Assembly: GCA_019638615.1 (NCBI GenBank)
Contig: JAHBTL010000033.1
Location: forward strand, 1-64,000
Reading direction: 5' to 3'
Origin: Chitinophagaceae bacterium
Lineage (GTDB): Bacteria; Bacteroidota; Bacteroidia; Chitinophagales; Chitinophagaceae
Length of the DNA: 64,000 bases
Of the stretch, positions 2,722 through 64,000 are shown piece after piece (the stretch's first letter is position 1; each line of letters starts with the position of its first letter). Position numbers and translations under genes: made by a program. Below the pieces are notes generated by a model. That model searched no databases, was not told the origin of the DNA, and saw only the letters and a list, made by a program, of their open reading frames with translations.

Positions 2722-2749
2722 AAAAGATCTCGATAACATTAGATATAGA

Positions 2750-4548: not shown

Positions 4549-4716
4549 AACAGCAACAAAATGGATCAGGGAGCTTTGTTGTATATCCGGCAGCAAAATA
4601 AGTGGGAAATTATCAAATATCAACGCATGCCGGTTGTTGTAGAAGGGGATGAAAAATATCAACTGCCTGATTACCAGCTACAAGTATTTAAAAAACCGTT
4701 GTTTTCCACCAAAAAA

Positions 4717-4783: not shown

Positions 4784-4891
4784 TAAAAAACGTTGTTTTA
4801 TTTTTGGTAAAGTCAGGGGATATCACATTCCTCTGAAATACCTGTTGTAACTGGGAATATGGTACAGGTCGCCGGAGACGACAACAAACCC

Positions 4892-4990: not shown

Positions 4991-5098
4991 CCAACGCCAA
5001 GACACTGTTCGCTCTGAATGACAAGAAACCGAAAGCTCACGCTCACACATCGCTGATGGCTGACTGCCGATAGCTGACACCTGATCGCTGACAGCTTC

Positions 5099-6037: not shown

Positions 6038-6043
6038 GCCCGT

Positions 6044-6051
6044 CAAAGGTA
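6044..6051 (-). promoter_or_regulatory. -7 box (TACCTTTG) of corA
   Basis: Exact match to the Bacteroidota TAnnTTTG -7 consensus on the minus strand, 7 bp before the corA ATG at 6037. Confidence 0.5.
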
Positions 6052-6097
6052 GGTGTACCGGATTAAAACTAAAATTTCTACAATCGGTATCCCTGTT

Positions 6098-6886: not shown

Positions 6887-6905
6887 TTTGTATGGTTAAA
6901 CAGTG

Positions 6906-6913
6906 CAAATTTA
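6906..6913 (-). promoter_or_regulatory. -7 box (TAAATTTG) of dapF
   Basis: TAnnTTTG match on the minus strand, 20 bp before the dapF ATG. No convincing -33 element was seen. Confidence 0.45.
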
Positions 6914-6970
6914 CTTTGTTCCGGCCGAAGCTGAGTAAGCTGTATTTGTATCATTAAAAAACGCTGTTGC

Positions 6971-7837: not shown

Positions 7838-7875
7838 AACTGCAAGTTATTTACTTATTTTCCATAAAAATCCCC

Positions 7876-7883
7876 TATTTTTG
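7876..7883 (+). promoter_or_regulatory. -7 box (TATTTTTG) of tRNA-Cys
   Basis: Exact TAnnTTTG match on the plus strand ending 15 bp before the tRNA. Confidence 0.5.
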
Positions 7884-7898
7884 CGACCCTTGTAAAAA

Positions 7899-7969
7899 GG
7901 TCCTGTGGCCGAGTGGTCAGGCAGAGCTCTGCAAAAGCTCCCACAGCGGTTCGAATCCGCTCGGGACCT
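7899..7969 (+). tRNA. tRNA-Cys (anticodon GCA)
   Basis: 71 nt folding as a cloverleaf. Acceptor stem GGTCCTG pairs with CGGGACC (one G-T pair), leaving discriminator T, typical of tRNA-Cys. The anticodon stem GAGCT/AGCTC encloses loop CTGCAAA with GCA at positions 34-36. The T arm contains GGTTCGAATCC. The 3' CCA is not encoded. Confidence 0.96.
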
Positions 7970-8001
7970 CACGGTTTTCTCTTAAAAATTTTATTTTTTT
8001 C

Positions 8002-8028
8002 AAAAGCCCGCCAATTGCGGGTTTTTTT
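8002..8028 (+). terminator. intrinsic terminator after tRNA-Cys
   Basis: CCCGC (8007-8011), loop CAATT, GCGGG (8017-8021), then seven T, with an A-run before the stem. It lies 33 bp after the tRNA. Confidence 0.8.
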
Positions 8029-8230
8029 GTGCGAAAATTTTCTTCTCTAACAGGAACGCATACCTGTTTTGTATGTAATTTTTAGGGTATACACTTATTG
8101 ATTTTGCTGTTTCACTGTTTTAACTTGCCTCATTATACATCTGCGCTGCTAGCTGCACCCTGCGTCTATAGATAAACCCTGTAATGAATTGCCTTTTTAA
8201 AAGTTAATTCCCGGCATAAAATTCAGGCAC

Positions 8231-10021: not shown

Positions 10022-10049
10022 TGCGTATCTTTTCGGTGGCAATCCTCCG

Positions 10050-11180
10050 TTATTTCAGGCCTACCCACCATTGCCTGAAAGTTTGTTCCGGCGTATTCAG
10101 ATTTACAATTTCACCAATCATGGGCGTTGCCAGTGTATAAGGCGCCTGCTCCGATAACGCTGATATTTTAACAAGCGGATCATCCCACGAATGCTGTGCC
10201 AGTGTAAACTTAGAATGATGTACAGGCAACATGCGCCTCGCATTTATATCAATAGTAGCTTGTTTTGCTTCATCGGGCAGCTTGTGTACCGATTGCCATG
10301 CTACGTTATACTGCCCGCATTCCATTAATGCGAAATCGATATTCCCCATTTTTTCTCCTATTTCTTTAAATACCGGGTCGTACCCTCCATCGCCACTATA
10401 AAAAATCTTCATTGCAGGGCTTTCAATTACAAAAGACAGCCATAGGGCCTGTGATCGTTTAAACCCGCGTCCCCCATCGTGGTGCGCGGGAAAGCTGTGT
10501 ATGATATAGTTTGAATCTACCATACTTGTTTCGTACCAGTCCATTTCAATGATCTGCTCTTTGGCATACCCCCAATGTTCAAAATGCGCCCCTGCCCCTA
10601 ACCCGCAAATAACATGTTTTACTTTGGGTTTTAATGCAAGGATGGTTTCATAATCAAGGTGATCGTAATGATCATGTGATATGATGAGATAATCAATGGC
10701 TGGCAGGTCGCCGGGCTTATACACATCAGTGCCTTTGTAGGCTTTTACAGACCCGGGTATGGGCGATGCGCTGCTGCTGAAAACAGGATCAATTAAAAAT
10801 TTCTTTCCATCCAGTTGCATATATACCGAAGAATGCCCGAACCAGACGACCAGGTTACTGTCTGCGGCAAGCGCATGCAGGTTGGTTTTTACAGAAGGCA
10901 GACTATCTGATGGAGCCGTGCGCTCAAATTTTTTAAACAGGGTTTTGTATACCTCTCTTATCATGGAATGACCCTCGGTGATGATGGGACGTTCTACCTG
11001 GTTTACGAACTTCCCCTTTTTGTAGTTAGGAGATTGCTGGATGCGCTCCAGTCTTATGCCGGAAGGCAGCTTCCCGAATTTTGCCTGTTTCATATAAAAA
11101 AAGATTGTGATCGTCAATACAATGAGCAGCGACACTATTACAATTACAGTACGCTTCAATATTTTAAGGATGTATTTCAT
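10050..11180 (-). CDS. MBL-fold metallo-hydrolase, NAPE-PLD/RomA-like, membrane-anchored
   Basis: 376 residues. An N-terminal membrane segment (~12-30) precedes a metallo-beta-lactamase domain with LIISHDHYDHLDYE (the HxHxDH metal site, ~163-172), FPAHHDGGRGF and YSGDGGYD. The C-terminal LPVHHSKFTLAQHSWDDP is typical of the UlaG/NAPE-PLD-like branch. These enzymes hydrolyse phosphoesters or lactones; the substrate here is unknown. It follows the NAD(P)-binding gene by 33 bp, so both are probably one transcript under the TetR regulator upstream. Confidence 0.85.
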   Translation of the reverse strand: MKYILKILKRTVIVIVSLLIVLTITIFFYMKQAKFGKLPSGIRLERIQQSPNYKKGKFVNQVERPIITEGHSMIREVYKTLFKKFERTAPSDSLPSVKTNLHALAADSNLVVWFGHSSVYMQLDGKKFLIDPVFSSSASPIPGSVKAYKGTDVYKPGDLPAIDYLIISHDHYDHLDYETILALKPKVKHVICGLGAGAHFEHWGYAKEQIIEMDWYETSMVDSNYIIHSFPAHHDGGRGFKRSQALWLSFVIESPAMKIFYSGDGGYDPVFKEIGEKMGNIDFALMECGQYNVAWQSVHKLPDEAKQATIDINARRMLPVHHSKFTLAQHSWDDPLVKISALSEQAPYTLATPMIGEIVNLNTPEQTFRQWWVGLK

Positions 11181-11213
11181 GCTTAAACATTCAAAAGGAT
11201 TTGAATTACCGGA

Positions 11214-11864
11214 TCAGCCTGTAGCCAATGCCTTTATATCGCTTATTTCCAGTATTTGTTTATTATAGCCTTTTACAGCACCGTTGATCATCGCCTGGCC
11301 TACTTCATGTAGTGTGAGCGACTGTCGGGGAAACAGGTAGGGGAAAACTGCTATAACAGGCTTAAAAAACCACCGGACATTCTTCTGTCCTTTTACGGGT
11401 TTCATAAAGCCCGGACGGAAATTATACTGTCCCCGGAATCCCAGCTTCATCAAATCGTCTTCAGTTTTGCCTTTTACCCGTTGCCACATTTGCTTACCAT
11501 GGTTATTGGTATGTGCGCCGGTTACAAAATGAAATACCATTTGCGGGTTGATATTTGCCAGCACTTTGGCAAAGTTCAATGTGGTATCATACGTAATGCG
11601 TGTATAGTCTGCTTCACCCATTCCCACCGAGCTTATACCTGCGCAATAAAAGCAGGCGTCGTACCCGCTCACCTGGCCGGCATATTCATGCAGCCTGCTA
11701 AAATCGGGCACCAGTAATTCCTTCAACTTTGGATGCGACATTTCATAGTGCCTCCTGTTGATCATAAGGACTTCCGCTATGTCACTGCTTTGTAAACAAT
11801 GGAGCAGCACACCTTCTCCAACCATGCCGGTGGCGCCTGTAAGTATAATTTTAAGTGTATTCAT
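11214..11864 (-). CDS. NAD(P)-binding Rossmann-fold oxidoreductase (epimerase-like)
   Basis: 216 residues. The N-terminal ILTGATGMVGEGVLLHCL gives the GxxGxxG dinucleotide loop of atypical SDR/NmrA-HTATIP2-like proteins. Later YNFRPGFMKPVKG resembles the substrate-side region of this group. No classical YxxxK pair is obvious, so a redox-sensing or reductase role is uncertain. An inverted repeat at 11909-11928, matching the one in front of the tetR-type gene, lies 45 bp upstream of the ATG. Confidence 0.75.
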   Translation of the reverse strand: MNTLKIILTGATGMVGEGVLLHCLQSSDIAEVLMINRRHYEMSHPKLKELLVPDFSRLHEYAGQVSGYDACFYCAGISSVGMGEADYTRITYDTTLNFAKVLANINPQMVFHFVTGAHTNNHGKQMWQRVKGKTEDDLMKLGFRGQYNFRPGFMKPVKGQKNVRWFFKPVIAVFPYLFPRQSLTLHEVGQAMINGAVKGYNKQILEISDIKALATG

Positions 11865-11908
11865 TTCCTGTTTAAAATTTTAAGTGTGAAGTGTTCATTA
11901 TATAATTT

Positions 11909-11928
11909 TGGACTGAATGTTCATTCCA
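11909..11928. promoter_or_regulatory. probable TetR operator in front of the oxidoreductase gene
   Basis: On the minus strand TGGAATGAACATTCAGTCCA, sharing GGAATGAAnATTC with the palindrome in front of the TetR gene (12519-12538). The shared sequence and position suggest the same repressor binds both. Confidence 0.5.
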
Positions 11929-11943
11929 TTTTGAGGTAAAAAA

Positions 11944-12501
11944 TTATTCTTTAATGGCATCCCAAACCATGCGCAAATGTTGTTCAAGATGCAGGGAATT
12001 GTTTTGTTTACTGCTGCTCAATATCCATCGGACATAGGTCGTTAAGGCGCCGGCCAAAAAATGAAGGATGGCTTCCAGTTCTATTTGTTTAATAATGCCG
12101 TCCTTTTGCCCCCGCTGTATCAGCTCAATTACAGGCATAAAAGCAGCTTTTCCCTCCTCTTTGGTACTGCAATGAATAACAGGTGAGTTCTGCATCTGGT
12201 CCATAAAAGCAAAACTCTCCGGGTATTTCAGGTTAAAACGGATGAAAGCGGTGTAGTAACTCAGGAAACGGGCTTTAAGAGGCGAGTTCGGGTCTATACT
12301 CCTGGTAACCAATGTCACTTCCGACTTTTTTATGTACAGGTAAATGGCGTTGATCAGCTCTTCCTTTGTGGCAAAATAGTTGTAAATGGTACCCATACCG
12401 GTACCCGCAGCTTTGGCTATGGCAGACATAGGCGTAGCCTGTACCCCTTTTTCAACCAGCAGCTTCATGGCTGCTACAATTATCTGTTCTTTTTTATCCA
12501 C
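11944..12501 (-). CDS. TetR/AcrR family transcriptional regulator
   Basis: 185 residues from the GTG at 12501 (VDKKEQII...). The longer frame from an ATG at 12537 would start inside the palindromic operator and upstream of the -7 box, so the GTG is preferred. The N-terminal helix-turn-helix is clear: AAMKLLVEKGVQATPMSAIA and GMGTIYNYFATKEELI. The C-terminal ligand domain has no recognised specificity. Palindromes at its own promoter and at the next gene indicate self-regulation and control of the oxidoreductase and MBL genes. Confidence 0.88.
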   Translation of the reverse strand: MDKKEQIIVAAMKLLVEKGVQATPMSAIAKAAGTGMGTIYNYFATKEELINAIYLYIKKSEVTLVTRSIDPNSPLKARFLSYYTAFIRFNLKYPESFAFMDQMQNSPVIHCSTKEEGKAAFMPVIELIQRGQKDGIIKQIELEAILHFLAGALTTYVRWILSSSKQNNSLHLEQHLRMVWDAIKE

Positions 12502-12505
12502 GGAG

Positions 12506-12538
12506 CAAAGATAAATGATTTGGAATGAATATTCCAAA
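12506..12538 (-). promoter_or_regulatory. promoter and palindromic operator of the TetR gene
   Basis: A TATCTTTG -7 box (12506-12513) lies next to a perfect inverted repeat TTTGGAAT-4-ATTCCAAA (12519-12538). A repressor there would cover the -33 to -10 region. The box ends 5 bp before the GTG, implying a leaderless or nearly leaderless mRNA. Confidence 0.6.
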
Positions 12539-12883
12539 TTAATGCTGAGAAAACCAGCCCAACCGCATTATTGAAAATTATCCTTTTTGTCTACAAACGG
12601 GTTGTGCCGATGGCACAGCAAATCCAATATGTCCAACAGCATTTTATACAGTAGAGTAACTGACTAAGCGTATTTCATTCACCCCTGGTTACGTATCTGC
12701 AATATGCCGCATAGCGGCTACCTGTTGGTAAAACTTACAAATCAGAAAGCTGTGACAAACAAAAGCACCATGTCACGGCTCAATGATGGAGCCCACTAAT
12801 TGTTAACTCGACTGACTGCTTATAGCCCACTGCCCATAGCTGACAGCCTATAACTGAAAGCCGGCCGTTCTTTTAAATTCAGG
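12539..12883. repeat. gene-free spacer with REP-like palindromes and phrase repeat
   Basis: 345 bp without a credible gene. Short palindromic pieces occur (TGTGCCGATGGCACA near 12605, GCCGCATAGCGGC near 12703) of the dispersed Bacteroidota intergenic type. From ~12808 a degenerate phrase repeat follows (CTTATAGCCCACTGCCCATA, GCTGACAGCC...), the same family as at 5050, 16350, 43450, 50430, 52100 and 57690. Confidence 0.5.
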
Positions 12884-13954
12884 TTAAATATGTTTCAATA
12901 CCTCTTCCCCCATTCTTTCGGTACCCAGTATTTTATCAGCAGGCGTTTGGGTATCTGCAATATCTCTTGTGCGGAAACCGGCTTTCAATACTTTGTCAAC
13001 CGCATTGATGATGGCTTCCGATTCAGCTTTTAATCCAAATGAAATATCCAACAATAACGCAGCGGAAAGAATAGAAGCCAAAGGATTGGCAACACCCTTG
13101 CCGGTGATATCATGCGCGGAGCCATGTATGGGTTCGTATACGCCAGTGCCGTCACCCACAGATGCAGAAGCCAGCATACCCATGGAGCCTGCAATCTGAG
13201 ACGCTTCGTCTGTTAATATATCTCCAAATAAATTAGCGGTCACTACCACATCAAAGCGGCGGGGATCTTTGATCAGGATCATTGCTGCGGCATCTACAAA
13301 CTGGTGCTCTACTTCCACATCAGGATACTCAAGCGCTACTTTCTGCACTACTTCGCGCCATAAGCGGGAAGTCTCCAGCACATTGGCTTTATCAACCGAG
13401 CATAATTTCTTTCTTCTTGTCCTGGCTGCTTCAAATGCCTTACGGGCAATACGCTCTACTTCAAAACGGCTGTACTCGGCCAGATCAAAAGCGGTATCGC
13501 CATTGTTCTTTCTCCCTTTTTCCCCAAAATATATATCACCGGTAAGCTCACGGAAAAATAAGATGTCAGCGCCTTTCAACACTTCCTGCTTTATACTTGA
13601 AGCGCTCAGCAATTCATCAAATAATTTTATAGGGCGAAGGTTGGCATACAGTCCAAGCTCTTTGCGCATTTTCAGCAGGCCCTGCTCGGGTCTTACTTTC
13701 GCAGTAGGATCGTTGTCATATTTAGGATGCCCCACAGCGCCGAATAATACAGCGTCAGATTTTTTCATTTTCACTAAAGTCTCATCAGGCAGGGGATTGC
13801 CGGTAGCTTCAATGGCTACATGCCCGATCAAAGCTTCATCATACGTAAAGGTATGACCGAATTTTGCCGCTATCTTATCCAATACTTTTTTACCAACTGC
13901 AGTTACTTCCTGCCCGATGCCGTCTCCGGGAACAATGAGAATGTTTTTTGTCAT
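12884..13954 (-). CDS. leuB: 3-isopropylmalate dehydrogenase
   Basis: 356 residues. NAD-dependent oxidative decarboxylation of 3-isopropylmalate, the third stage of leucine synthesis. Typical motifs are IVPGDGIGQEV at the start, FRELTGDIYFGEKG (~133-146), the substrate arginines of RPEQGLLKMRKELGLYANLRP, and VTANLFGDILTDEASQIAGS with GVYEPIHGSAHDI near the end (metal aspartates and NAD site). Length is normal. Last gene of the leuC-leuD-leuA-like-leuB cluster. Confidence 0.97.
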   Translation of the reverse strand: MTKNILIVPGDGIGQEVTAVGKKVLDKIAAKFGHTFTYDEALIGHVAIEATGNPLPDETLVKMKKSDAVLFGAVGHPKYDNDPTAKVRPEQGLLKMRKELGLYANLRPIKLFDELLSASSIKQEVLKGADILFFRELTGDIYFGEKGRKNNGDTAFDLAEYSRFEVERIARKAFEAARTRRKKLCSVDKANVLETSRLWREVVQKVALEYPDVEVEHQFVDAAAMILIKDPRRFDVVVTANLFGDILTDEASQIAGSMGMLASASVGDGTGVYEPIHGSAHDITGKGVANPLASILSAALLLDISFGLKAESEAIINAVDKVLKAGFRTRDIADTQTPADKILGTERMGEEVLKHI

Positions 13955-13964
13955 TTTATATGTG

Positions 13965-14072
13965 GTTACAAGTTACAAGTTTCGGGTTACAGGTTATGTC
14001 TACAAATTACAAATGATGTTAGAATTCACAAACGCTAACCTGAAACTTGAGACCTGAAACCTGCAACTGTTT
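13965..14072. repeat. phrase repeat (GTTACAAGTTTCGGGTTACAGG family)
   Basis: The leuA-like/leuB spacer is built from variants of an ~8-nt phrase on both strands (GGTTACAAGTTACAAGTTTC, CCTGAAACTTGAGACCTG). The same family recurs at ~43380, 50530, 57770 and 58100-58235. Confidence 0.6.
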
Positions 14073-15644
14073 TCACACCATATTCAACATCTTCTGCGTG
14101 GCCTTTATCGCCGATACCGTTTGGTCGCTGTCGAGCCCGCGGGTTTTAAATTCTTTGTTATTATGCCGCCAGGTAATTACAGTTTCGCACAACGCGTCAC
14201 TCTTACCGCCGGGCGGTATTCTAACCGCGTAATCCGTAAGCACAGGTAATTCTATTTTCCGCTGCTTATATACCTTTTTCAATGCATTCATAAAGGCGTC
14301 ATACTGCCCGTCGCCCTGCGCATGCTCTTCGTATGAATCGCCCTGTACGGTAACCTTCACGGTTGCAGAAGGGTGCATGCTTTTGGAATGTGTCAGCACA
14401 TAATTATCAATGCGCACTTTATCTTCTATCGCATTATCGAGTATGTCGGATATGATATAGGGCAGGTCAGCCTGTGTTACCACTTCTTTCCTGTCGCCCA
14501 GCTCAATAATGCGCTGTGTTACTTTTTTAAGATCATTATCAGAAAGCTGGATGCCTAACTGCTGCAGGTTATTTTCAATATTGGCTTTGCCGCTGGTTTT
14601 ACCCAACGCATATTTGCGCTGGCGGCCAAAACGCTCCGGCATCAGGTCGCTGAAATATAATTTATTCTTTTTATCACCGTCCGCATGTATGCCTGCTGTT
14701 TGCGTAAAAACATTCTCTCCTACAACAGGTTTATTAGCGGGGATGCGGAAACCTGAAAAAGTTTCTACAAGCTTACTTACACTGTACAATGATTTTTCTG
14801 AGACAGCGGTTTTAACCTCAGGCATAAAATCGTTCAATACAGCAATCGCGCTGGCAAGCGGCGCATTACCTGCTCTTTCTCCCATTCCGTTTACGGTAAG
14901 ATGCAAGCCATGCGCCCCGGCTTTTACCGCTTCCAGCACATTGGCTGTGCCAAGATCATAGTCGTTATGCCCGTGAAAATCAAAATGTATACCAGGATAA
15001 CGTTGCGTTATGGATGATACGAACTCATACACTTCCGAGGGGATCAGTATACCGAGCGTATCGGGAAGCATCACCCTTTTTACCGGCTGTGTAACGATGA
15101 AGTCAAGATACTGAAATACATATTCAAGTGAGTGGCGCATGCCATTGCTCCAGTCTTCGAGATACACATTGGTTTCAATGCCTTTCTTTTTAGCAAGCGC
15201 TATCACTGCAGCTATATCCGCAAAATGCTGTTCCGGTTTTTTCTTTAACTGATGTGTAAGATGATTTAAAGATCCTTTTGTCAGCAGGTTCATTACTTTG
15301 GCGCCGGCTTTCTGCATCCATTCAATAGATGTATTGCCGTCCACAAAAGTGAGTACTTCTACTTTATTCAGAAGCTTATTCGCTTTGGCCCAGGAAGTGA
15401 TTTTCTTTACTGCGTCAAACTCACCTTCCGACACACGGGCGGAAGCGATTTCAATACGGTCAACCTTTACTTCCGTAAGCAATAACTGGGCTATCGTTAA
15501 TTTTTCCGAGGATGAAAAAGATACGCCGCTGGTTTGTTCACCATCACGCAGGGTAGTATCCATTATTTCAATGTACGAAGCCTCTCCTCCAACCCCTCTC
15601 CGGGAGAGAAGGGAGCTGGAATCTGTTTTATCTTGAGGAGTCAT
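14073..15644 (-). CDS. 2-isopropylmalate synthase family protein (LeuA or citramalate synthase-like)
   Basis: 523 residues. A DRE-TIM acyl-transferase domain (IEIMDTTLRDGEQTSGVSFS, then HGHNDYDLGTANVLEAVKAG and NGMGERAGNAPLAS) is followed by the Claisen-condensing subdomains and a C-terminal LeuA-type regulatory domain (~400-520). Position between leuD and leuB fits the first committed step of leucine synthesis. Family homology alone does not separate 2-ketoisovalerate from pyruvate as acceptor. Oddity: residues ~9-22 (SSSLLSRRGVGGEA) are encoded by a dispersed palindromic repeat. The conserved YIEI strand follows, so the repeat-derived residues probably belong to the real N-terminus unless translation begins at Met28 (15563). 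Confidence 0.88.
   Translation of the reverse strand: MTPQDKTDSSSLLSRRGVGGEASYIEIMDTTLRDGEQTSGVSFSSSEKLTIAQLLLTEVKVDRIEIASARVSEGEFDAVKKITSWAKANKLLNKVEVLTFVDGNTSIEWMQKAGAKVMNLLTKGSLNHLTHQLKKKPEQHFADIAAVIALAKKKGIETNVYLEDWSNGMRHSLEYVFQYLDFIVTQPVKRVMLPDTLGILIPSEVYEFVSSITQRYPGIHFDFHGHNDYDLGTANVLEAVKAGAHGLHLTVNGMGERAGNAPLASAIAVLNDFMPEVKTAVSEKSLYSVSKLVETFSGFRIPANKPVVGENVFTQTAGIHADGDKKNKLYFSDLMPERFGRQRKYALGKTSGKANIENNLQQLGIQLSDNDLKKVTQRIIELGDRKEVVTQADLPYIISDILDNAIEDKVRIDNYVLTHSKSMHPSATVKVTVQGDSYEEHAQGDGQYDAFMNALKKVYKQRKIELPVLTDYAVRIPPGGKSDALCETVITWRHNNKEFKTRGLDSDQTVSAIKATQKMLNMV
15581..15614. repeat. REP-like palindrome inside the 5' end of the leuA-like gene
   Basis: Minus-strand reading: CCCTTCTC-TCCCG-GAGAGGGG, then GTTGGAGGAGAGG. 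The same layout (GC-rich stem plus GGGTTGG-type tail) appears outside the gene at 15669-15696. It is read in frame as SLLSRRGVGGE. Confidence 0.65.
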
Positions 15645-15668
15645 CTTATTGTAAGATATTTAATAAGT

Positions 15669-15696
15669 CCTTCCCATTGGGAAGGGTTGGGATGGG
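15669..15696. repeat. REP-like palindrome between leuD and the leuA-like gene
   Basis: CCTTCCC-ATT-GGGAAGG stem followed by GTTGGGATGGG. Related in design to 15581-15614. Confidence 0.6.
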
Positions 15697-15700
15697 CTTT

Positions 15701-16297
15701 TTAGTATAAACTTTTTTCAGCAAAAGCTGTAATATTACTTTTCATGGCCTGCAGGTAATCAATATCATCGTAACCATTCATCAGGTTATGCTTCTTGTAA
15801 CCGTTTATATCAAACTTTTCACTTTCGCCTGTAGCAAGCAAAGTAATGGTTTGTTCAGGAAGGTTTACTTCTAATTCCGTTTTTGGATCGGCTTCGATTG
15901 CCTTGAATATTTTATCCAGGAAGCCTTCGCTAACAGTCACCGGCAGTATACCCACGTTTAAAGAATTGCCTTTAAATATATCGGCAAAAAAGCTGGATAC
16001 CACGCAACGAAAGCCGTAATCATATATCGCCCAGGCAGCATGTTCGCGACTGCTGCCGCTACCGAAGTTTTTCCCCCCTACCAGTATCTTACCTGAGTAG
16101 ATGGGGTTGTTCAGCACAAAATCTTTCTTCGGTGTATCATCACTGTTATATCTCCAGTCGCGGAAAAGGTTATCACCAAACCCCTTTCTTTCCGTTGCTT
16201 TTAAAAAACGGGCCGGGATGATCTGGTCTGTATCCACATTTTCAATCGGCATCGGAACAGCCGTACTTTTTAATACCGTAAATTTATCGTAAGCCAT
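15701..16297 (-). CDS. leuD: 3-isopropylmalate dehydratase small subunit
   Basis: 198 residues. Swivelling domain of isopropylmalate isomerase, partner of LeuC. Typical sequence: PMPIENVDTDQIIPARFLK at the N-terminus and GKNFGSGSSREHAAWAIYDYG (~75-95), the substrate-binding loop. Length is normal. Sits between leuC and the leuA-like gene. Confidence 0.96.
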   Translation of the reverse strand: MAYDKFTVLKSTAVPMPIENVDTDQIIPARFLKATERKGFGDNLFRDWRYNSDDTPKKDFVLNNPIYSGKILVGGKNFGSGSSREHAAWAIYDYGFRCVVSSFFADIFKGNSLNVGILPVTVSEGFLDKIFKAIEADPKTELEVNLPEQTITLLATGESEKFDINGYKKHNLMNGYDDIDYLQAMKSNITAFAEKSLY

Positions 16298-16386
16298 AAA
16301 GGAATTTCTGATTTGAAATTTGAGATTTCTGATTTGAGATTTACTAACCGCTGATTGCTGACAACTGATAGCTAATAGCTTCTTTT
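16298..16386. repeat. phrase repeats between leuC and leuD
   Basis: First a TTTGAAATTTGAGATTTCTG type phrase (16312-16340), then the GCTGATTGCTGACAACTGAT type. Both families recur elsewhere in the window. Confidence 0.55.
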
Positions 16387-17799
16387 CTACGCCTCATTCA
16401 ACAACTCCCTCGGATCCGTTACCACCCCTGTAACGGCTACCGCTGCAGCCACATAAGGACTTGCCAGCAACGTACGCGCGCCGGGGCCCTGACGGCCTTC
16501 AAAGTTCCTGTTGCTGGTGCTTACCGCATATTTGCCGGCAGGAATTTTATCGTCATTCATTGCCAGGCAGGCGGAACAACCGGGCTGCCTCAATTCAAAG
16601 CCGGCTTCATTAAGAATGTCCAGTATGCCTTCTTTCTTTATCTGCTCTTCCACAATATGCGAACCGGGCACTAGCCAGGCGGTGATATTATCCGCTTTTT
16701 TTCTGCCTTTCACTACTTTGGCAAATGCGCGAAAATCTTCAATACGACCATTGGTACAGCTTCCCAAAAACACATAATCTATTTTTTTACCGAGGAGAGG
16801 CTGCCCTTCCTGGAAATCCATATATGCCAAAGATTTTTTGTAAGAAGCCTCACCATCCTTTACTTCGGAAGCTTTGGGGATGGAATGTGTGATGCCGGTT
16901 CCCAACCCGGGGTTGGTTCCATAAGTAATTTGCGGTTCTATATTTGACGCGTTAAAAACCAGCTCTTTATCAAAAACTGCACCGTCATCTGTTTTCAGTG
17001 TTTTCCAGTAAGCCAGCGCCTTATCCCAGGCTTCACCTTTAGGGGCTTTATCACGTCCTTTTACATAATTAAAAGTGGTTTCGTCCGGAGCAATCATACC
17101 GCCACGGGCGCCCATTTCAATGCTCATATTACAAACCGTCATACGGCCTTCCATGCTCATATTTTCAAATACTTCGCCGGCATACTCGCAGAAATAGCCT
17201 GTGGCGCCGCTCGCCGTGATCTGGGAGATCATATATAAAGCCACATCTTTGGGCAACACGCCTTTTCCTAATTTGCCGTTGATGGTAATGCGCATTTTCT
17301 TTGGCTTGGGCTGCATGATGCATTGCGATGCCAGCACCATTTCTACCTCGGAAGTACCAATACCAAAAGCGATACAACCAAAAGCACCGTGTGTAGAAGT
17401 ATGGGAGTCGCCGCAAACTATTGTCATGCCCGGAAGCGTAATGCCATTTTCAGGGCCCACTACATGCACAATGCCATTTTTCGGGCTACCCAATGCCCAT
17501 ATAGAAATGCCGTACTTTTGAGCGTTGCTCGAAAGCGCCGCCAACTGCTTGGCGGAAAGCGGGTCTTTAACCGGCTGATCCTGGTTGATGGTGGGGGTAT
17601 TGTGATCTGCCGTAGCAAAAGTACGTTGCGGGTATAAAACAGAGATGCCCCGGTTTTCAATACCGAGAAACGCTACCGGGCTGGTAACTTCATGAATAAA
17701 ATGACGGTCAATAAATAACACATCGGGCCCATCAGGAATGCTCCTTACCACATGGGCGTCCCAAACTTTGTCAAACAAGGATGCTGGCTTATTACTCAT
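16387..17799 (-). CDS. leuC: 3-isopropylmalate dehydratase large subunit
   Basis: 470 residues from the ATG at 17799 ([18 protein letters not shown]). The frame also starts at 17826, but the family begins at this second Met. Aconitase-fold subunit holding a [4Fe-4S] cluster: cysteines in FLGSCTNGR and [25 protein letters not shown] and [12 protein letters not shown] are also typical. First gene of the leu cluster. An inverted repeat and a GAAATTTG box lie upstream. Confidence 0.97.
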
Positions 17800-17830
17800 A
17801 GCTGAATAAATTTTAGAGAGGCGCAAATTT

Positions 17831-50622: not shown

Positions 50623-52104
50623 ATGAAATTTGTAAAACATCTTATTCATCTTGTTATTTGTCTCCTGGTTTCGCCGATGATATATGCGCAGCAAAAGCCC
50701 AATATTATTTACATTCTTGCTGATGATCTTGGGTATGGAGATGTAAACTGTTTGAATGCGGATTCGAAAATTCGTACGCAGCATATAGACAGGATGGCGG
50801 CGGAAGGGATGATGTTCACGGATGCGCATAGCAATTCCGCGGTATGTACGCCCACGCGCTATGGCATACTCACTGGCAGGTACGCATGGCGGACAAGATT
50901 GCAAAACGGTGTGTTGTGGGGATATGATACCATGCTGATAAACAATAGCAGGACCACTTTGGCTTCCTTATTAAAACGCAACGGGTATCGTACCGGCTGT
51001 ATCGGCAAATGGCATCTGGGGCTTGACTGGCAAAAGGATGCCCGGGGTGTATTTGATTTTTTCCAACCTGTAGCCAATGGACCTTTGCAGGTTGGATTTG
51101 ATTATTTCTATGGTATACCTGCCTCACTGGATATGCAACCCTATTTTTATATAGAAAACAACAGGGTTACAGCAACTGTTGCCGACAGCACATCGGGAAA
51201 TACAGGCAAAGGATTCTGGCGGGCAGGGCCTGCCGGAAATGATTTCAGGCAGGAAGAAGTGCTGGAAAGGATCACGGATAAGGCGGTAGACTATATTGCA
51301 AGAGAAGCCCGGTCTGGTAAACCGTTTTTCCTGTATTTCGCGCTTACTTCGCCGCACACACCTATACTGCCCTCGGCGCCTTACCAGGGAAAGTCAGGCA
51401 CAAACGCGTATGGAGATTTTGTATTGATGACGGATGCGATGGTAGGTAAGATACTGGACGCGGTGAAGGCGGCAGGCATTGAGCAAAATACGCTCCTTGT
51501 TTTTACCAGCGATAATGGCTGTTCTCCCTCGGCAGACTTTAAAGAACTGGCTGCTGCCGGTCACAATCCAAGCTATATTTACAAGGGGGCAAAAGCCGAT
51601 ATATTTGAAGGCGGACATCGCATACCCTTTATCGTCAGATGGCCCGGAAAAGTAAAAGGGGGGTCGCATACTTCTGCAACCATTTGCCTCACAGATTTTA
51701 TGGCAACCCTTGCGGATATGCTTCAGCAGCCTTTAAGAGATGATGAAGGTGAAGACAGCTTCAGCCTGTTGCCTTTGTTGCTGCAAAAGAATGGTTATAA
51801 AAGAATGAGTATCATTCATCATTCCATTGACGGAAATTTTTCTGTCAGGAAAAACAACTGGAAACTGGTTTTTGCACACGGCTCCGGTGGCTGGAGCGCG
51901 CCCACCGAAAAAGAAGCAAAAGCGCAAGGTTTACCCGGCTTGCAGTTGTATAATTTAAAAACGGATATCAAAGAAAGGAACAACGTGGCCGCGGATCATG
52001 TTCCTGTTGTAAAAGAATTATCGGCAATGGCCAATGCCATCATTGAAAATGGCAGGTCAACCGAAGGAATCAAACAACGGAATGATGTTGAAGTAAGGCA
52101 ATAG
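50623..52104 (+). CDS. secreted sulfatase (arylsulfatase A-like)
   Basis: 493 residues with a signal peptide (MKFVKHLIHLVICLLVSPMIYA). Sulfatase signature NSAVCTPTRYGILTGRY: Cys75 in CxPxR is the residue matured to formylglycine. Calcium ligands ILADDLGYGD (Asp34-35) and VFTSDNGCSPSADF, the catalytic KWHLG lysine/histidine and SPHTPILPS are present. Removes sulfate esters, probably from a glycan, in the periplasm. Its maturase is not in the window. No SusCD gene is adjacent. Confidence 0.94.
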   Translation: MKFVKHLIHLVICLLVSPMIYAQQKPNIIYILADDLGYGDVNCLNADSKIRTQHIDRMAAEGMMFTDAHSNSAVCTPTRYGILTGRYAWRTRLQNGVLWGYDTMLINNSRTTLASLLKRNGYRTGCIGKWHLGLDWQKDARGVFDFFQPVANGPLQVGFDYFYGIPASLDMQPYFYIENNRVTATVADSTSGNTGKGFWRAGPAGNDFRQEEVLERITDKAVDYIAREARSGKPFFLYFALTSPHTPILPSAPYQGKSGTNAYGDFVLMTDAMVGKILDAVKAAGIEQNTLLVFTSDNGCSPSADFKELAAAGHNPSYIYKGAKADIFEGGHRIPFIVRWPGKVKGGSHTSATICLTDFMATLADMLQQPLRDDEGEDSFSLLPLLLQKNGYKRMSIIHHSIDGNFSVRKNNWKLVFAHGSGGWSAPTEKEAKAQGLPGLQLYNLKTDIKERNNVAADHVPVVKELSAMANAIIENGRSTEGIKQRNDVEVRQ

Positions 52105-58880: not shown

Positions 58881-58917
58881 AGTCTACTTGTTTGGTAGAC
58901 TAAATACCCTATATTTG
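58881..58917 (+). promoter_or_regulatory. promoter with overlapping inverted repeat for the second susCD operon
   Basis: TTG (58888-58890), 19 bp, then TATATTTG (58910-58917): a good Bacteroidota promoter. A 7-bp inverted repeat AGTCTAC-7-GTAGACT (58881-58901) covers the -33 element, as expected for a repressor site. The bound regulator is not identified. Transcription would start near 58925, giving a leader of ~410 nt before susC. Confidence 0.6.
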
Positions 58918-58929
58918 CTTTCAATTAAC

Positions 58930-58980
58930 ATGCTGCGCAATAGTATGTGCAGTAGCTTGTTTTTGATTGTTGCCTTGTAA
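58930..58980 (+). CDS. possible 16-aa leader ORF
   Basis: ATG about 5-8 nt after the predicted transcription start, encoding MLRNSMCSSLFLIVAL then a stop. One cysteine and a hydrophobic end. It may be chance; listed because it is the first ATG of the leader and ends 17 bp before the Cys-rich ORF. Confidence 0.25.
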   Translation: MLRNSMCSSLFLIVAL

Positions 58981-58997
58981 GCTTTTAAATTAGAACT

Positions 58998-59084
58998 ATG
59001 CTGTTTAATTCAACAACAAAACGCTCTCTTCATTTCAACGCTGTTGTCAGCACACAGTATTGCTGTTGCTGCTGTATCTGTTAA
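58998..59084 (+). CDS. 28-aa cysteine-run leader peptide upstream of susC
   Basis: 28 codons ending in VVSTQYCCCCCIC before TAA: six of the last seven residues are Cys (codons TGC TGT TGC TGC TGT ATC TGT). The basic part TTKRSLHFN precedes it. It lies in the leader RNA of the second susCD pair, behind a good promoter and 254 bp before the susC ATG. Leader peptides rich in one amino acid are the classical sensors of that amino acid through ribosome stalling, and Cys-run leaders upstream of sulphur genes are known in actinobacteria. A cysteine/sulphur-responsive role here is inference. Too short for usual gene callers. Confidence 0.6.
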   Translation: MLFNSTTKRSLHFNAVVSTQYCCCCCIC

Positions 59085-59163
59085 GTTGCTAATGCTTATT
59101 ACACTTCTCATTCCTTATCCTGGGCGGGTACAATTTTTATACTAGCATTTCAATTAAATATTT

Positions 59164-59223
59164 ATGAAACAAATCTTTGTTTGTTGCCGGGATGGTCCGT
59201 GTGGCAATCATTTAAATAAATAG
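59164..59223 (+). CDS. possible 19-aa Cys-containing leader ORF
   Basis: ATG after an AT-rich stretch, encoding MKQIFVCCRDGPCGNHLNK then TAG. Three Cys. Its stop codon is the first part of the strong hairpin at 59223-59248, so ribosomes finishing here would contact that stem. Coding is plausible but unproven. Confidence 0.35.
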   Translation: MKQIFVCCRDGPCGNHLNK

Positions 59224-59248
59224 CCGGCATCGTTGCAGCGATACCGGC
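59223..59248 (+). promoter_or_regulatory. strong hairpin in the susC leader
   Basis: GCCGG-C-ATCG (59223-59232), loop TTGCAG, CGAT-A-CCGGC (59239-59248), nine pairs with one C-A mismatch. No U-run follows, so it is not a standard terminator. It sits 89 bp before the susC ATG. Confidence 0.5.
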
Positions 59249-59337
59249 CGTATAAAAAGGCTGACGTGAATCATGGCAGAAGAGCAATGACGCTTTTCCT
59301 GCCGCCTTATTATTGGATCGAATATAAACAAATATGT

Positions 59338-62300
59338 ATGAAATTTAAGTGGCTTATATGGCTGAACTTGTTTTTTTTATTTGCAATAACACTTACCGCC
59401 CAGGTTAATGAAGTGCGGGAGGTAGAAGGAGTAGTAAAATCAGAAAAAGGTGAACCGCTGGAAGGAGTAAGTATTGGCGTGAAAGGTGCTGAAAATGGAA
59501 CATTTACCAACAGCGGGGGATATTTTAAAATAGCATTACCAGCTACCAGCAATAGCATCGTTTTTTCTTTTACAGGATTTGCCAAACAGGAAGTAAAAGT
59601 GGTCGCCGGCAAAACAATGTCCGTTATCCTGAAGCAGGATATAGGTCAACTGGACGAAATAGTAGTAACTGCTGTTGGTATCAAGAATACAAAGAAATCT
59701 ATCAATTATTCCATTCAACATCTTAAAACAGCAGAAATAACTGCTACCAAAGAACCAAATATAGTTTCTGCTTTGAGCGGAAAGGTAGCCGGGGTACAGA
59801 TTAATAATAGCAGCGGGCAACCGGGCGGATCTGCAACCATACGCATACGGGGCAGTGCATCAGCACTGGGCGATAATTCGCCTTTGTTCATATTAGATGG
59901 CATGCCTATCGACAATTCCAATACCGGACTGGCCATTCAAAATGCCAACCAGATTGTAAACCAGTCTAACCGGACAGTAGACATCAACCCCAATGATATA
60001 GAAAGTATTTCTGTGCTCAAGGGACCCGCTGCTGCTGCATTATATGGAATACGCGCATCGAATGGTGCTGTTATCATTACAAGTAAAAAGGGATCTTATG
60101 GAAAAGACAGGCAGAAACTGAAAGTATCACTGTACAGCAGCCTTACATTTGAAACCATTGCAAGAAGATTGCAGCCTGCGCAAACAACATTCGGACAGGG
60201 CGTAAATGGAAAATATACAACGCCTGGTCAAAATGGATCAGAAGACAGTTGGGGCCCTTTGCTTGATACGCTTACATACAGCACTGTGGCCAGTAAATGG
60301 GACAAAAATGGCACTATAGTCGGAAAGAACGATCCCACCTCTAACGGCATTCCTGTAAACAGGTACGACAACATTGGTAGTTTTTTTGAACTAGGTTATA
60401 CCAATGACAATGCTGTAAGTATAACCGGTAATAGTGAAAAGCTCGGCTATTACTTTTCGTTTGGCAGACTTTATCAGAAAGGCATTGTACCCACTACTGA
60501 TTTCTTTCGCAACACAGTGCGGTTCGGAACAACCTTTCGTGCTACCGACAAGCTTGATTTTAATGTATCCGTTAATTATTTTAATTCGGGCTCTCACAAC
60601 AGGATGTTACCGGGGGGTGCGCCTGCCGGCACCTTGCGTAGCTTAATCAATACGCCTGCTAATTTCGATATTACCAACGGGCTTTCAAATCCTGCCGGAA
60701 ATCCGCTTTCATACACTTTTGAAGATGGTACACAACGGGCTTACGCAGGTGGCACACGTGGGTTCGACAGTCCATTCTGGTCGCTGAACAACAATCCTCA
60801 TCCGGACAATATCAATCGTGTTGTGCTGGTAGAAGAAACCAATTATAAAATTCTTGACTGGTTAACGGCAACGTTCAGGTTGGGAACCGATGTATCTTTT
60901 GAAAAAAGAATGTCCTTATTCAATAAAGGATCTGTTGCTTTTCCTGCAGGTATATTGGTAAACTATAATTTCTTTAACAAAGATATCAATACAGATGTCT
61001 ATCTCACAGCGAATAAAAAGTTGTCAGACGATTTTAACCTGAAAGTGATCGCAGGGCATAATTACTTCGATCATCATCTTAACGCCACCTTAAACCAGGG
61101 TAATAATTTGAACCTGCCTGGTTTTGAGAACATCAGCAACGCCTCTACTTTCAACATTCAGCAAAATATTACTAAAAGAAGGCTTGTGGCAGGTTATGCC
61201 AGTGCTGAACTGGATTATAAAAAATGGCTGATACTGAATGTTACAGGCAGAAATGAGTGGACCTCTACCCTTGCCAGGGGTAAGAATTCCTTCTTTTATC
61301 CTTCTGTGAGCCTTGGATGGATTGTAAATGAGTCTCTTAACTGGTACGCTCCGTGGCTCGACTACCTGAAGCTAAGGACTTCGTTTGCACGGGTAGGCAA
61401 TGATGCATCTCCTTATTCCCTGGCTACTTATTATTCTTCTGCAACGCTCAGCGGATCTGTTCAGGGACAAACGCTCAATTTTCCTTTTAACGGGTTGGCA
61501 GGTTACAGCATCAACAGCAGCCTTGGCAATATTAATTTAAAGCCGGAACAAATCACATCGTACGAAGGCGGATTGGAAACCTGGCTGTTCAAAAACAGGC
61601 TGGGTGTGGATGTTTCAGCATATAAAAATGAAAGCCGCGACCAGATACTGCCTGTAAGTATTCCCACATCAACCGGCTTCAACAGTTTCATCACCAATGC
61701 GGGACTGATCACCAACCAGGGAGTAGAAGCGATTGTGACTGGCGTATTGGTAAACAAATCTTCCTTTAGGTGGACGGCTATACTCAACTTTGCACATAAT
61801 CAGAGCAAAGTACATTCCTTAACTGAAGGCAGCGGTATCATTTCGCTGATGAGCACCAATGGAGGAACACAGGTGATAATGGCAGGACAGCCCTTTAGTG
61901 TAATCTATGGCAGAGCGTTAACTACCAACGAAGCAGGAAAGGTTTTGATTGATGACAGGCAAACCATTAATGGCGCTCCCAATGCCAGTTATGGATTACC
62001 TCTGGCAGAGGCTGCTCCAAGCGTTATAGGAGATCCCAATCCATTGTGGAATGCGGGGTTGAGAAACACGATAAGCTATAAAAATTTCAGTCTTTCCTTC
62101 CTGTTCGATAACCGTTATAAGTTTGATATCTACAACAGCACGTTGGCGCAAATGGTAAGCAACGGTGTGGCAAAAGTTACGGAAAACAGGTACGACCAGG
62201 TAGTATTTGACGGAGTTGGGTTAACCAGCGGAAAAATAAACGATATACAGGTAGTCCCTGGAGAAGCATGGTACAGAAGCACGATCAACTATGGATCCGT

Positions 62301-62562
62301 TTATATGGAAAAAGACCTGTGGTGGATACGCTTGCGTGATATTAACCTGAGCTACACCCTGCCGGAAAGCCTGCTTGATAAAATCCGTTTGTCGGAACTC
62401 GAACTGACCCTGACAGGAAGAAATCTTTTTCTGTTTACAAATTATTCCGGAAGCGATCCGGATGTAAACCTGCGTGGAGGTTTTACCAATGGCTTTGGTT
62501 CAGACTTTTTTAATTACCCTACTACCAAAAGCTACGGTATAACGTTGCGTGCCTCATTTTAA
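59338..62562 (+). CDS. SusC/RagA-family TonB-linked outer-membrane transporter (second)
   Basis: 1074 residues from the ATG at 59338, which begins a signal peptide (MKFKWLIWLNLFFLFAITLT). In-frame codons back to 59233 cross the hairpin and are unlikely to be used. Carboxypeptidase-regulatory-like domain (VEGVVKSEKGEPLEGVSIGV), TonB box region LDEIVVTAVGIKNTKKSINY, plug (IRIRGSASALGDNSPLFILD, VLKGPAAAALYGIRASNGAV) and barrel ending SYGITLRASF. No STN domain. Substrate unknown; the Cys-run leader upstream raises the possibility of a sulphur-containing substrate. Confidence 0.95.
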   Translation: MKFKWLIWLNLFFLFAITLTAQVNEVREVEGVVKSEKGEPLEGVSIGVKGAENGTFTNSGGYFKIALPATSNSIVFSFTGFAKQEVKVVAGKTMSVILKQDIGQLDEIVVTAVGIKNTKKSINYSIQHLKTAEITATKEPNIVSALSGKVAGVQINNSSGQPGGSATIRIRGSASALGDNSPLFILDGMPIDNSNTGLAIQNANQIVNQSNRTVDINPNDIESISVLKGPAAAALYGIRASNGAVIITSKKGSYGKDRQKLKVSLYSSLTFETIARRLQPAQTTFGQGVNGKYTTPGQNGSEDSWGPLLDTLTYSTVASKWDKNGTIVGKNDPTSNGIPVNRYDNIGSFFELGYTNDNAVSITGNSEKLGYYFSFGRLYQKGIVPTTDFFRNTVRFGTTFRATDKLDFNVSVNYFNSGSHNRMLPGGAPAGTLRSLINTPANFDITNGLSNPAGNPLSYTFEDGTQRAYAGGTRGFDSPFWSLNNNPHPDNINRVVLVEETNYKILDWLTATFRLGTDVSFEKRMSLFNKGSVAFPAGILVNYNFFNKDINTDVYLTANKKLSDDFNLKVIAGHNYFDHHLNATLNQGNNLNLPGFENISNASTFNIQQNITKRRLVAGYASAELDYKKWLILNVTGRNEWTSTLARGKNSFFYPSVSLGWIVNESLNWYAPWLDYLKLRTSFARVGNDASPYSLATYYSSATLSGSVQGQTLNFPFNGLAGYSINSSLGNINLKPEQITSYEGGLETWLFKNRLGVDVSAYKNESRDQILPVSIPTSTGFNSFITNAGLITNQGVEAIVTGVLVNKSSFRWTAILNFAHNQSKVHSLTEGSGIISLMSTNGGTQVIMAGQPFSVIYGRALTTNEAGKVLIDDRQTINGAPNASYGLPLAEAAPSVIGDPNPLWNAGLRNTISYKNFSLSFLFDNRYKFDIYNSTLAQMVSNGVAKVTENRYDQVVFDGVGLTSGKINDIQVVPGEAWYRSTINYGSVYMEKDLWWIRLRDINLSYTLPESLLDKIRLSELELTLTGRNLFLFTNYSGSDPDVNLRGGFTNGFGSDFFNYPTTKSYGITLRASF

Positions 62563-62581: not shown

Positions 62582-64000
62582 ATGATGACAAAGTATATAA
62601 AATGGCTGACGATAGTAACAGTAATGCCTGTTTTGTTTTCGTGCAGCAAAATGCTGGAAAATACCAATATCAATAAAAACAATCCCTCAGATATTCCTTT
62701 AACAGGATTACTGCCTGCCGCGGAAGTAGCATTAACTTATAATATTGCCGCGGATTTTTCAATGCGATCGTCCATTTTTGTACAGCATATTGGTGGTATT
62801 GGCGGATTTGCAGTAAACGACGACAAATATGATTTTGCCACCAGCAATTTTGATGGCGCCTGGGCAAACGCGTACGGCAAATCGTTGAACAATCTTTTGC
62901 AGATCATAAAAAAGGCGGAAGCTGCAGGCGCTCCCCGTTATGCAGGTATAGCTAAGGTGCTTACTGCATTGTCGTTGGGCACTTTAACCGATGCATATGG
63001 GGATATACCATACACAGAAGCGTTGAACCCCGAAATTCTTGCTCCCTCGTACGAAAGCCAGGAAGCGATTTATAATAAAATACAATCGTTGCTGGAAAGT
63101 GCAGTGAGCGACTTACAGCAAACAACAGGGCTGGCACCAGGCAACGATGATGTAATATTTAAAGGAAATATTGCAAGATGGATCGCCTCGGCATGGACGC
63201 TGAGGGCGAGATACGCGCTTCACCTGAGTGCACGAAATTCTCAACAGGCCGCGCAGCAGGTGCTGGGCTTTTTGTACGATGGTAATACCTATCGCGGGAT
63301 CCAGCATAACGATGGTGATATTGCTATTACCTTCGGAACGTCCAATAACCAGGCTTCACCCTGGTTTACGCAGGATGCCGGACGCCCTGGCTGGTACGGT
63401 ATGGGCGGATACCTGGTGGATCTGCTGAATGGTGACCCGCCGGCTGTTCCTGTTGATCCACGCAGGGCGGCATTTGCTGCCCCAAGGCCTGCCCCCGCAC
63501 CGCCCGATACATATGTTGGATCGCGTCCGGGCATACCCACAGCCGCATCAAATATTGTGGGTGTAAATACTTATTACGGAAGAAATAATTCCCCGGTGTC
63601 TCTTCTCAGTTTTCCGGAGGCAAAGCTGATTGAAGCAGAAGCAAGGCTGTTACTGGATGAAAATGATCCGCTTATTCAGGCTTCGCTGGAAACAGCAGTA
63701 AAAAGCTCATTTGAAAAAGTTACTTCAGTTGCTGACCCGTTCGCCAGCCAGCAAAACCAGGATGAATATATTGCCAAAAGGGTACAATTGAATGGCAGTG
63801 CAGCCGAAAAACTCAAAACCATCATTACTCAAAAATATGTTGCGCTTTACCTGAACCCTGAAGTCTGGGTAGATTATCGTCGTACAGGATATCCTGAGTT
63901 ATCACCGGCAACCGGTGGCGCCACCACTATTAATCCTAATGGAGAAATTCCCAGGAGATTTTCATATCCTAACAGCGAAGTAAACCTGAACCCACAGCTC
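62582..64000 (+). CDS. SusD-like outer-membrane lipoprotein (SusD-like_2 type), partial at window end
   Basis: 473 codons from the ATG at 62582, open at the last base. Lipobox PVLFSC gives a lipidated Cys at residue ~22. The pattern NPSDIPLTGLLPAAEVALTY, LTALSLGTLTDAYGDIPYTE, FKGNIARWIASAWTLRARYA and IITQKYVALYLNPEVWVDYR matches the second SusD-like family rather than classical SusD. It ends in RRFSYPNSEVNLNPQL, near the usual C-terminus, so only a few residues should be missing. Starts 19 bp after susC. Confidence 0.92.
   Translation, partial: MMTKYIKWLTIVTVMPVLFSCSKMLENTNINKNNPSDIPLTGLLPAAEVALTYNIAADFSMRSSIFVQHIGGIGGFAVNDDKYDFATSNFDGAWANAYGKSLNNLLQIIKKAEAAGAPRYAGIAKVLTALSLGTLTDAYGDIPYTEALNPEILAPSYESQEAIYNKIQSLLESAVSDLQQTTGLAPGNDDVIFKGNIARWIASAWTLRARYALHLSARNSQQAAQQVLGFLYDGNTYRGIQHNDGDIAITFGTSNNQASPWFTQDAGRPGWYGMGGYLVDLLNGDPPAVPVDPRRAAFAAPRPAPAPPDTYVGSRPGIPTAASNIVGVNTYYGRNNSPVSLLSFPEAKLIEAEARLLLDENDPLIQASLETAVKSSFEKVTSVADPFASQQNQDEYIAKRVQLNGSAAEKLKTIITQKYVALYLNPEVWVDYRRTGYPELSPATGGATTINPNGEIPRRFSYPNSEVNLNPQL

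Follow-up and report, generated by a model that had tools for sequence, protein, structure and literature searches.

A 28-codon open reading frame in the leader of a SusCD operon from a Chitinophagaceae bacterium ends in a run of cysteine codons. Does this upstream ORF (uORF) sense cysteine on behalf of the genes behind it? Or, is it an accident of a stretch rich in TGC and TGT? The DNA analysed here, the window, is 64,000 nucleotides long. Its first-pass annotation had proposed that ribosome stalling at the Cys run induces the SusCD pair when charged tRNA-Cys is scarce, and that the pair imports a sulfur source. SusCD systems are usually read as importers of carbon, in the form of glycans. 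A Cys-run leader would mark a SusCD-sulfatase subset that is expressed for sulfur and, as a sign that can be searched for in text, could give otherwise anonymous SusCD pairs a function. Cysteine leader-peptide attenuation would at the same time be extended to the Bacteroidota.

Cysteine leader peptides are known elsewhere. Mycobacterial polycysteine short ORFs, which are leaderless, form a cysteine-responsive attenuator of operonic genes according to the title of Canestrari et al. 2020, and a later paper that cites it refers to translation attenuation of cysteine biosynthetic genes (PMC13236596). Candidate cysteine leader peptides have also been described in Mycobacterium, Propionibacterium and Bifidobacterium, where the portion of the source consulted gives no conserved terminator and proposes Rho as a weak prediction (PMC1262725). 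Before cysS in the Rhodobacterales, the uORFC-8-2 motif contains tandem Cys codons and is read, in the excerpt seen, as ribosome-mediated attenuation (PMC8632094). The available passages of a Flavobacterium transcriptome study report strong clues that amino-acid biosynthesis operons in general are attenuated through leader peptides, and a cysteine leader is not among the attenuation candidates that they describe (PMC9723704). Among the matches listed for open-access titles and abstract openings, a scope outside which most subscription papers lie, none places a cysteine leader on SusCD or sulfatase operons or in the Bacteroidota. As far as found, both the phylum and the gene class (SusCD-sulfatase) are new.

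The uORF and its operon

The ORF is located at 58998-59084 on the forward strand, consists of 28 codons and a TAA stop, and translates as MLFNSTTKRSLHFNAVVSTQYCCCCCIC*. Cysteines are residues 22-26 and 28, six among the final seven. Their codons are TGC TGT TGC TGC TGT at 59061-59075, a mixture of TGT and TGC, followed by ATC, a last TGT at 59079-59081 and the stop, the whole Cys stretch spanning 59061-59081. When the leader (58902-59337) was subjected to dinucleotide shuffling and short ORFs were scored by the Cys in their last seven residues, none of 20,000 shuffles reached six, 3 reached five or more and 1193 reached three or more. The Cys-run ORF is therefore real, as first annotated, on its translation and on this test.

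A promoter is predicted upstream of the uORF at 58888-58917 (+). It is comprised of a TTG at 58888-58890, 19 nt, and TATATTTG at 58910-58917, which we take to be the Bacteroidota-type promoter pattern. Transcription would start at about 58923, giving a 5' UTR of about 75 nt before the uORF and placing the susC ATG (59338) behind a leader of about 414 nt, close to the 410 nt or so originally estimated. As in an attenuator, the run of Cys codons lies between the predicted promoter and the first gene, susC.

That gene (59338-62562, +) encodes a TonB-dependent transporter of 1074 aa with Pfam domains PF00593, PF07715 and PF13715. It adjoins a SusD-family lipoprotein gene, susD (62585-64000, +; PF12771/PF12741), which extends to 64051, past the end of the window, and the Pfam assignments make the two a SusCD pair as annotated. 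The window susC is absent from the 56 TIGR04056 matches listed for its own genome, where 56 of 197 candidates were scored. After susD, on the same contig and in the same direction, are found a sulfatase of 786 aa (L003 2095-4455, PF00884), a second of 517 aa (L003 4538-6091, PF00884) and an FGE-domain gene of 369 aa (L003 6102-7211, PF03781). The FGE domain is the domain of the enzyme that activates sulfatases. Because of these genes beyond the window, susC-susD-sulfatase-sulfatase-FGE reads, on Pfam functions, as an operon for sulfate-ester uptake and cleavage, and such scavenging fits the proposal that the SusCD pair imports a sulfur source. It is also characteristic of attenuators that the controlled genes supply the sensed amino acid or its precursor. 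By Pfam this applies to the sulfatases and FGE-domain gene here and to a PAPS reductase and a CysM-like enzyme at other Cys-run uORFs.

Elsewhere in the window there is a further sulfatase (50623-52104), and a leuB-leuA-leuD-leuC-like set, named by eye, is present at 12884-17826 (-). In the 500 nt around the first start of this set no obvious branched-chain leader peptide was found. Rfam gave no family for the whole window at the gathering cut-off, nor for the leader, whose best E value was 0.29 with nothing near the cut-off.

Recurrence at related susC loci

The peptide is not conserved as a sequence. A whole-peptide homology search of 394 family genomes matched 120, its own included, at E<=1, the best foreign match had an E value of 0.006, and many matches contained stops. 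Given this poor conservation, susC orthology was used to trace the uORF instead. SusC matched at E<=1e-185 in 17 of the 394 genomes, own included. In 7 of the 16 others it has 46-47% identity (E<=5.5e-282), each time with a Cys-dense short ORF before susC. No CCC uORF is seen in the remaining nine (37-42% identity), of which L078 is truncated by the end of its contig and L077 contains an ORF that starts at TTG and ends in FCC.

A SusC scan of genome contigs gave 45 loci, 29 at E=0 with 38-78% identity and 16 at <=35%. Six of the seven close orthologs recur among the 29, and the two sets overlap to this extent. Under a strict rule, uORFs have up to 60 codons, an ATG, GTG or TTG start and at least three Cys in four residues at any position, and are sought from 560 nt before to 90 nt inside the susC ORF. 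Such a uORF is present at 20 of the 29 related loci. At four more (L099, L114, L103 and L105) a uORF ending CMQRCCCM, CCCSCCC or CCSCCC is found immediately upstream of the operon gene or genes in front of susC. The rule for these four, four Cys among the last eight residues, has a background: it was satisfied 10 more times at other places on the coding strand of the 45 loci, each of which spans about 19 kb. L094, with only CCDMC, was counted as lacking a strict run; L111 and L121, from Sporocytophaga, have no run and end short ORFs in CPCV and CPRV, left uncounted; L117 and L119 have no Cys-run uORF. The distant SusC leaders contain one strict uORF in 16 (L137, TTG start, MSCPCCSCCS). Other susC leaders of the window's own genome contain none in 30, these being 30 of the 56 listed TIGR04056 matches. 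One of the 30 (L268) belongs to that genome's second sulfur locus, where the uORF is further upstream, before an earlier gene. The Cys run is thus kept in orthologous leaders, 20 of 29 by the strict rule plus the four upstream of an earlier operon gene against 0 of 30 controls, all counts being over raw loci with kinship ignored.

Retention follows the downstream genes. A same-strand downstream sulfatase match is present at 25 of the 29 loci, and L100 and L104 have a linked FA_hydroxylase gene only. Neither gene is found at L117, L119 and the 16 distant loci, of which L119 and L127 are cut by contig ends. Cys-run uORFs accordingly precede 24 of the 27 sulfatase- or FA-hydroxylase-linked loci vs 0 of the 2 with neither. 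They occur in Chitinophaga, Niastella, Longitalea, Paraflavitalea, Flavihumibacter, Foetidibacter, Solitalea and Rhodocytophaga.

The SusC-linked peptides number 27 (the window, L088 and 25 of the related loci, including the borderline L094). Each contains 3 to 9 Cys, and in all 27 the last Cys is 0-1 residues before the stop. Peptides that start MNQLL, MYIAK, MARHT or MTNIS have little in common with that of the window beyond this end. In 11 aligned Chitinophaga leaders the Cys run varies by whole codons and between TGT and TGC. Judged by these peptides, the conserved feature is the Cys run at the end, not the peptide sequence.

A membrane FA_hydroxylase gene (PF04116 where scanned) accompanies most such sulfatase-SusCD operons (L088-L092, most of L095-L121, and L144). 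This companion may point to sulfated or sulfonated lipids.

A palindrome shared by sulfur genes

The predicted promoter of the window leader is overlapped at its -33 box by a palindrome, GTCTACTTGTTTGGTAGAC (58882-58900; GTCTAC-7 nt-GTAGAC), which is a candidate operator. Of the 20 strict leaders, 14 have a GTAGAC half-site in the 700 nt that precede susC, and none was seen at L113, from Rhodocytophaga; the count does not extend to the four operons in which another gene comes first. The exact form, CTAYNNNNTTRGTAGACT, has three sites in the 7.18-Mb own genome, one in the window and two in the C34 locus L144. Allowing one mismatch made the palindrome unspecific as a marker, with 6 own-genome sites vs 10 for a reversed control. 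With its two following bases it has 60 sites in 117 family genomes vs 1 for the reversed pattern, and 35 of the 117 genomes carry it.

TTG-N18-21-TAnnTTTG is found near 21 of the 60 palindromes vs 0 of 172 control windows, and the -7 box alone near 28 of 60 vs 6 of 172, mostly at -9, +3 or +31 from the site. Overlap with promoters at several positions fits a repressor site.

A strict Cys-run uORF starts no more than 350 nt after the site in 19 of the 60 cases, where shuffling gives an expectation of 1.2 (sd 1.1, maximum 5, 200 shuffles). As the 19 include the three own-genome sites, and the leaders that supplied the motif already had uORFs, 16 of 57 is the fairer figure. In the opposite direction a strict uORF is present at 5 of 60 sites, at least one of them before a divergent PAPS reductase gene (L226). 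In the tested direction 41 of the 60 sites lack a strict uORF, and the operator therefore seems able to act alone. The last Cys is terminal in 10 of 20 uORFs at palindrome sites, and in the extreme case is 15 residues from the end.

What genes does the palindrome accompany? Twenty selected downstream or divergent proteins, from a minority of the 60 sites, were scanned with Pfam; gene names beyond Pfam are our own reading. The scan identified three PAPS reductases, a CysN-type GTPase, a CysM-like enzyme with a JAB protein, a sulfite-reductase domain, a flavodoxin-type reductase with a tetrapyrrole methylase, a siroheme-synthase domain and a Cys/Met-metabolism enzyme. It also identified two sulfatases, FA_hydroxylase, PhyH, an Rrf2 regulator, a TonB receptor and a zinc carboxypeptidase, and 2 of the 20 proteins had no Pfam family. 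On these domain assignments, the palindrome marks sulfur genes in the family.

The second sulfatase-SusC locus of the own genome is L144 (G000:C34:26001-46000; 2-8999 (-) and 9596-12950 (+)). Behind one of its palindromes are FA_hydroxylase, SusC, a gene taken as SusD-like from its position, and two sulfatases. Behind the other is a pair of PhyH and short-chain dehydrogenase genes, with cysteine-synthase-like (PALP) and hexapeptide-repeat genes about 4 kb away. Both are followed by a CCC uORF, with the endings HCMLCCCNNMHQ and IIYCCCRQATY. At L205 (920-2339) a uORF beginning MNGQTIHKRCCCNCCKKLQ is located before the CysM-like enzyme and JAB protein, an arrangement resembling the mycobacterial cysM-mec-cysO cluster.

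A regulator may be suggested by one site. In genome G076 the palindrome adjoins an Rrf2-family gene. Its homologs, one of them at G000:C23:101988-102389 in the own genome, are present in 79 of the 117 family genomes with the E cut-off at 1e-30 and in 71 with the cut-off at 1e-44. The 35 genomes with a palindrome all belong to the 71, and none is among the other 46 (Fisher p 2.9e-10, with kinship ignored and the 1e-44 cut-off picked afterwards). This co-occurrence and the one adjacent gene make the Rrf2 family the leading candidate for the regulator, no more. CymR is an Rrf2-family regulator of cysteine metabolism in Bacillus. The likeness is in the family of the candidate, the sulfur genes and a palindrome overlapping the promoter; unlike for CymR, the link of regulator to palindrome here comes from co-occurrence and one adjacent gene only.

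Leader RNA and the output step

How might the uORF act on susC? In the window there is no coding-strand intrinsic terminator of the trp type between uORF and susC; the single coding-strand terminator-like site, at 58931-58954, precedes the uORF. T-rich stretches before susC in the Niastella/Longitalea group, some 8-12 nt past a small hairpin, were rejected as intrinsic terminators: they are not canonical, and the window has none.

The spacer contains a recurrent hairpin, hairpin A (59223-59248, +; GCCGG-C-ATCGT(TGCA)GCGAT-A-CCGGC, loop GTTNNAGC). It is present in 10 of 12 leaders examined, in L115 with another loop, and is unseen in L102, in L113 and, by eye, in the 11 Chitinophaga leaders. 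Two adjacent inner pairs are changed on both sides, C-G/T-A vs T-A/C-G, and L116 has A-T where others have C-G. RNAalifold on seven sequences of hairpin A found a two-sided change in 6 of 16 pairs, with a covariation term of about zero (0.12). Further on is the hairpin B region (59257-59308, +; AAGGC...GCCTT), which was defined by alignment and fold and is strongly conserved with two Chitinophaga (L093 and L094). Aligned with these two relatives, the leader is far better conserved over roughly its final 120 nt, next to susC, than in its middle. The window leader is no more stable than its shuffles (z -0.76 and -0.32), and the mean z over 21 uORF-to-susC spacers is -1.5.

In an energy model, a simulated stalled ribosome made the susC start of 3 of 12 leaders more accessible by 0.06-0.09; in the other nine, the window included, the gain was no more than 0.03. 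A four-region translational switch was considered, as the consensus fold of five leaders pairs the uORF end with the region before susC. It was rejected on unfavourable covariation (4) and the inconsistent stall simulation.

The RNA directly after the uORF has a bias of C over G. A candidate Rho-loading stretch of this kind lies at 59085-59164 (+) in the window, where the bias is weak (C-G 0.06). Over the 80 nt after the uORF, C-G has a mean of 0.12 in 12 leaders vs 0.005 for the remaining spacer (p 0.03), with L102 negative, and of 0.104 at the 19 regulon sites. Control windows in 30 susC leaders, taken at a fixed distance from the start codon and not after an ORF, have -0.058 (p 3e-5 and 1e-6). 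This composition hints at a Rho-dependent output. For the output step we would tentatively place Rho-dependent attenuation first and translational control of susC second, both with low confidence.

The 11 aligned Chitinophaga leaders (within L095-L118) have a conserved ACCACCACC between palindrome and uORF, and in most of them the 5' UTR upstream of the uORF contains a CTTTGT-CCCACCAC-ACAAAG hairpin. This stretch and hairpin are a possible second RNA element.

Discussion

We read the ORF as a cysteine-responsive leader peptide, the attenuator uORF of a sulfate-ester operon, with a probable Rrf2-type operator above it, and put the probability of this reading at about 0.8. Translation of the uORF, stalling, the way in which the operon responds, the regulator and the output step are inferences within it. 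With charged tRNA-Cys in short supply, the ribosome would pause in the terminal Cys run, with a footprint that would cover the stop codon and the first spacer nucleotides, and susC-susD-sulfatase-sulfatase-FGE would be expressed. When cysteine is plentiful, the ribosome would finish and leave, and the operon would be held low. A repressor, likely of the Rrf2 family, would act as a second gate at the palindrome over the promoter. Most likely, judging from the leader and its genes, the uORF turns the operon on at cysteine shortage. The first-pass annotation was right in substance; the palindrome and the wider set of sulfur genes are additions to it. Lack of the Cys run in orthologous leaders would by its own terms have counted against it, and the run instead recurs at 24 of the 27 sulfatase- or FA-hydroxylase-linked loci.

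Could the ORF have arisen by chance over a TGC/TGT-rich stretch and have no function? TGY-rich tracts are frequent in the own genome, with 146 matches to TGYTGYTGYTGY vs 17 to the reversed pattern. By a loose rule, the 30 tract loci examined of the 146 have other Cys-run short ORFs at L013, L017, L021, L024/L025 (one place), L026 and L033. One of these, the L017 ORF (MVYTCCCCAGSL, C3:30518), is antisense within a 205-aa ORF with no susC behind it. Three Cys in the last seven residues also come readily from shuffled leaders (1193 of 20,000). Six came from none, however, and the run recurs in related leaders and is missing from 30 other susC leaders, which makes a chance ORF extremely improbable. 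A nascent peptide that senses metal, its cysteines binding copper or another thiophilic ion to control the TonB-dependent transporter downstream, is modelled on the copper-responsive CXXXCC uORF of Bordetella and is very unlikely. In its favour are a Cys-dense short peptide before such a transporter and CxxxCC in 7 of the 27 SusC-linked uORFs; the motif is missing, however, from the other 20, the window included, and from all 19 regulon-site uORFs. What they have in common is a Cys run that ends the peptide or comes close to its C-terminus, and sulfatases and sulfur assimilation genes are among the genes behind them.

The uORF may instead only aid or dampen susC translation, through re-initiation or spacing, with sulfur control residing wholly in the palindrome and its regulator. 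The 41 of 60 sites without a strict uORF agree with this, as does a stall simulation without a consistent switch. It leaves unexplained, however, why uORFs in the sulfatase operons of several genera end in Cys and not in another residue, and we consider it improbable. Returning to the attenuator reading, we give even odds to its extension to a two-layer sulfur circuit in the Chitinophagaceae and relatives, in which an Rrf2-type repressor is joined at about one third of promoters by a Cys-codon checkpoint for charged tRNA, probably acting via Rho. If true, amino-acid attenuation would extend from biosynthesis to SusCD outer-membrane import and sulfatases.

The window resembles the mycobacterial polycysteine ORFs of Canestrari et al. 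in having a short ORF that encodes a Cys run. The uORF of the window differs in belonging to the Bacteroidota, would by its predicted transcription start have some 75 nt of 5' UTR, would control a SusCD importer and sulfatases, and has a palindrome on its predicted promoter. The actinobacterial leaders front cys and cbs operons, with no importer or sulfatase operon in the portion of the source consulted (PMC1262725), whereas this leader fronts an importer and sulfatase operon. Tandem Cys codons are shared with uORFC-8-2, which differs from the window in having two Cys codons in a stem, an intrinsic terminator and control of a tRNA synthetase (PMC8632094).

How far does the palindrome extend? 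A phylum-wide search found it in 13 of 296 genomes, seven of the own family, five of family f24 and one of f36. Outside the own family there are 7 sites vs 10 reversed matches, with six of the sites clustered in five genomes of one other family; the palindrome is on this account a family-level sign in this search. At L243 and L244 of f24 the palindrome is followed by uORFs rich in Cys and Met, which end NMCFDMMCMMMMC and MMMHCCMPVLRHYCG and precede a TonB-receptor-like gene and an EamA-like/MetN-like pair (names by eye). These are possibly leaders that sense both sulfur amino acids.
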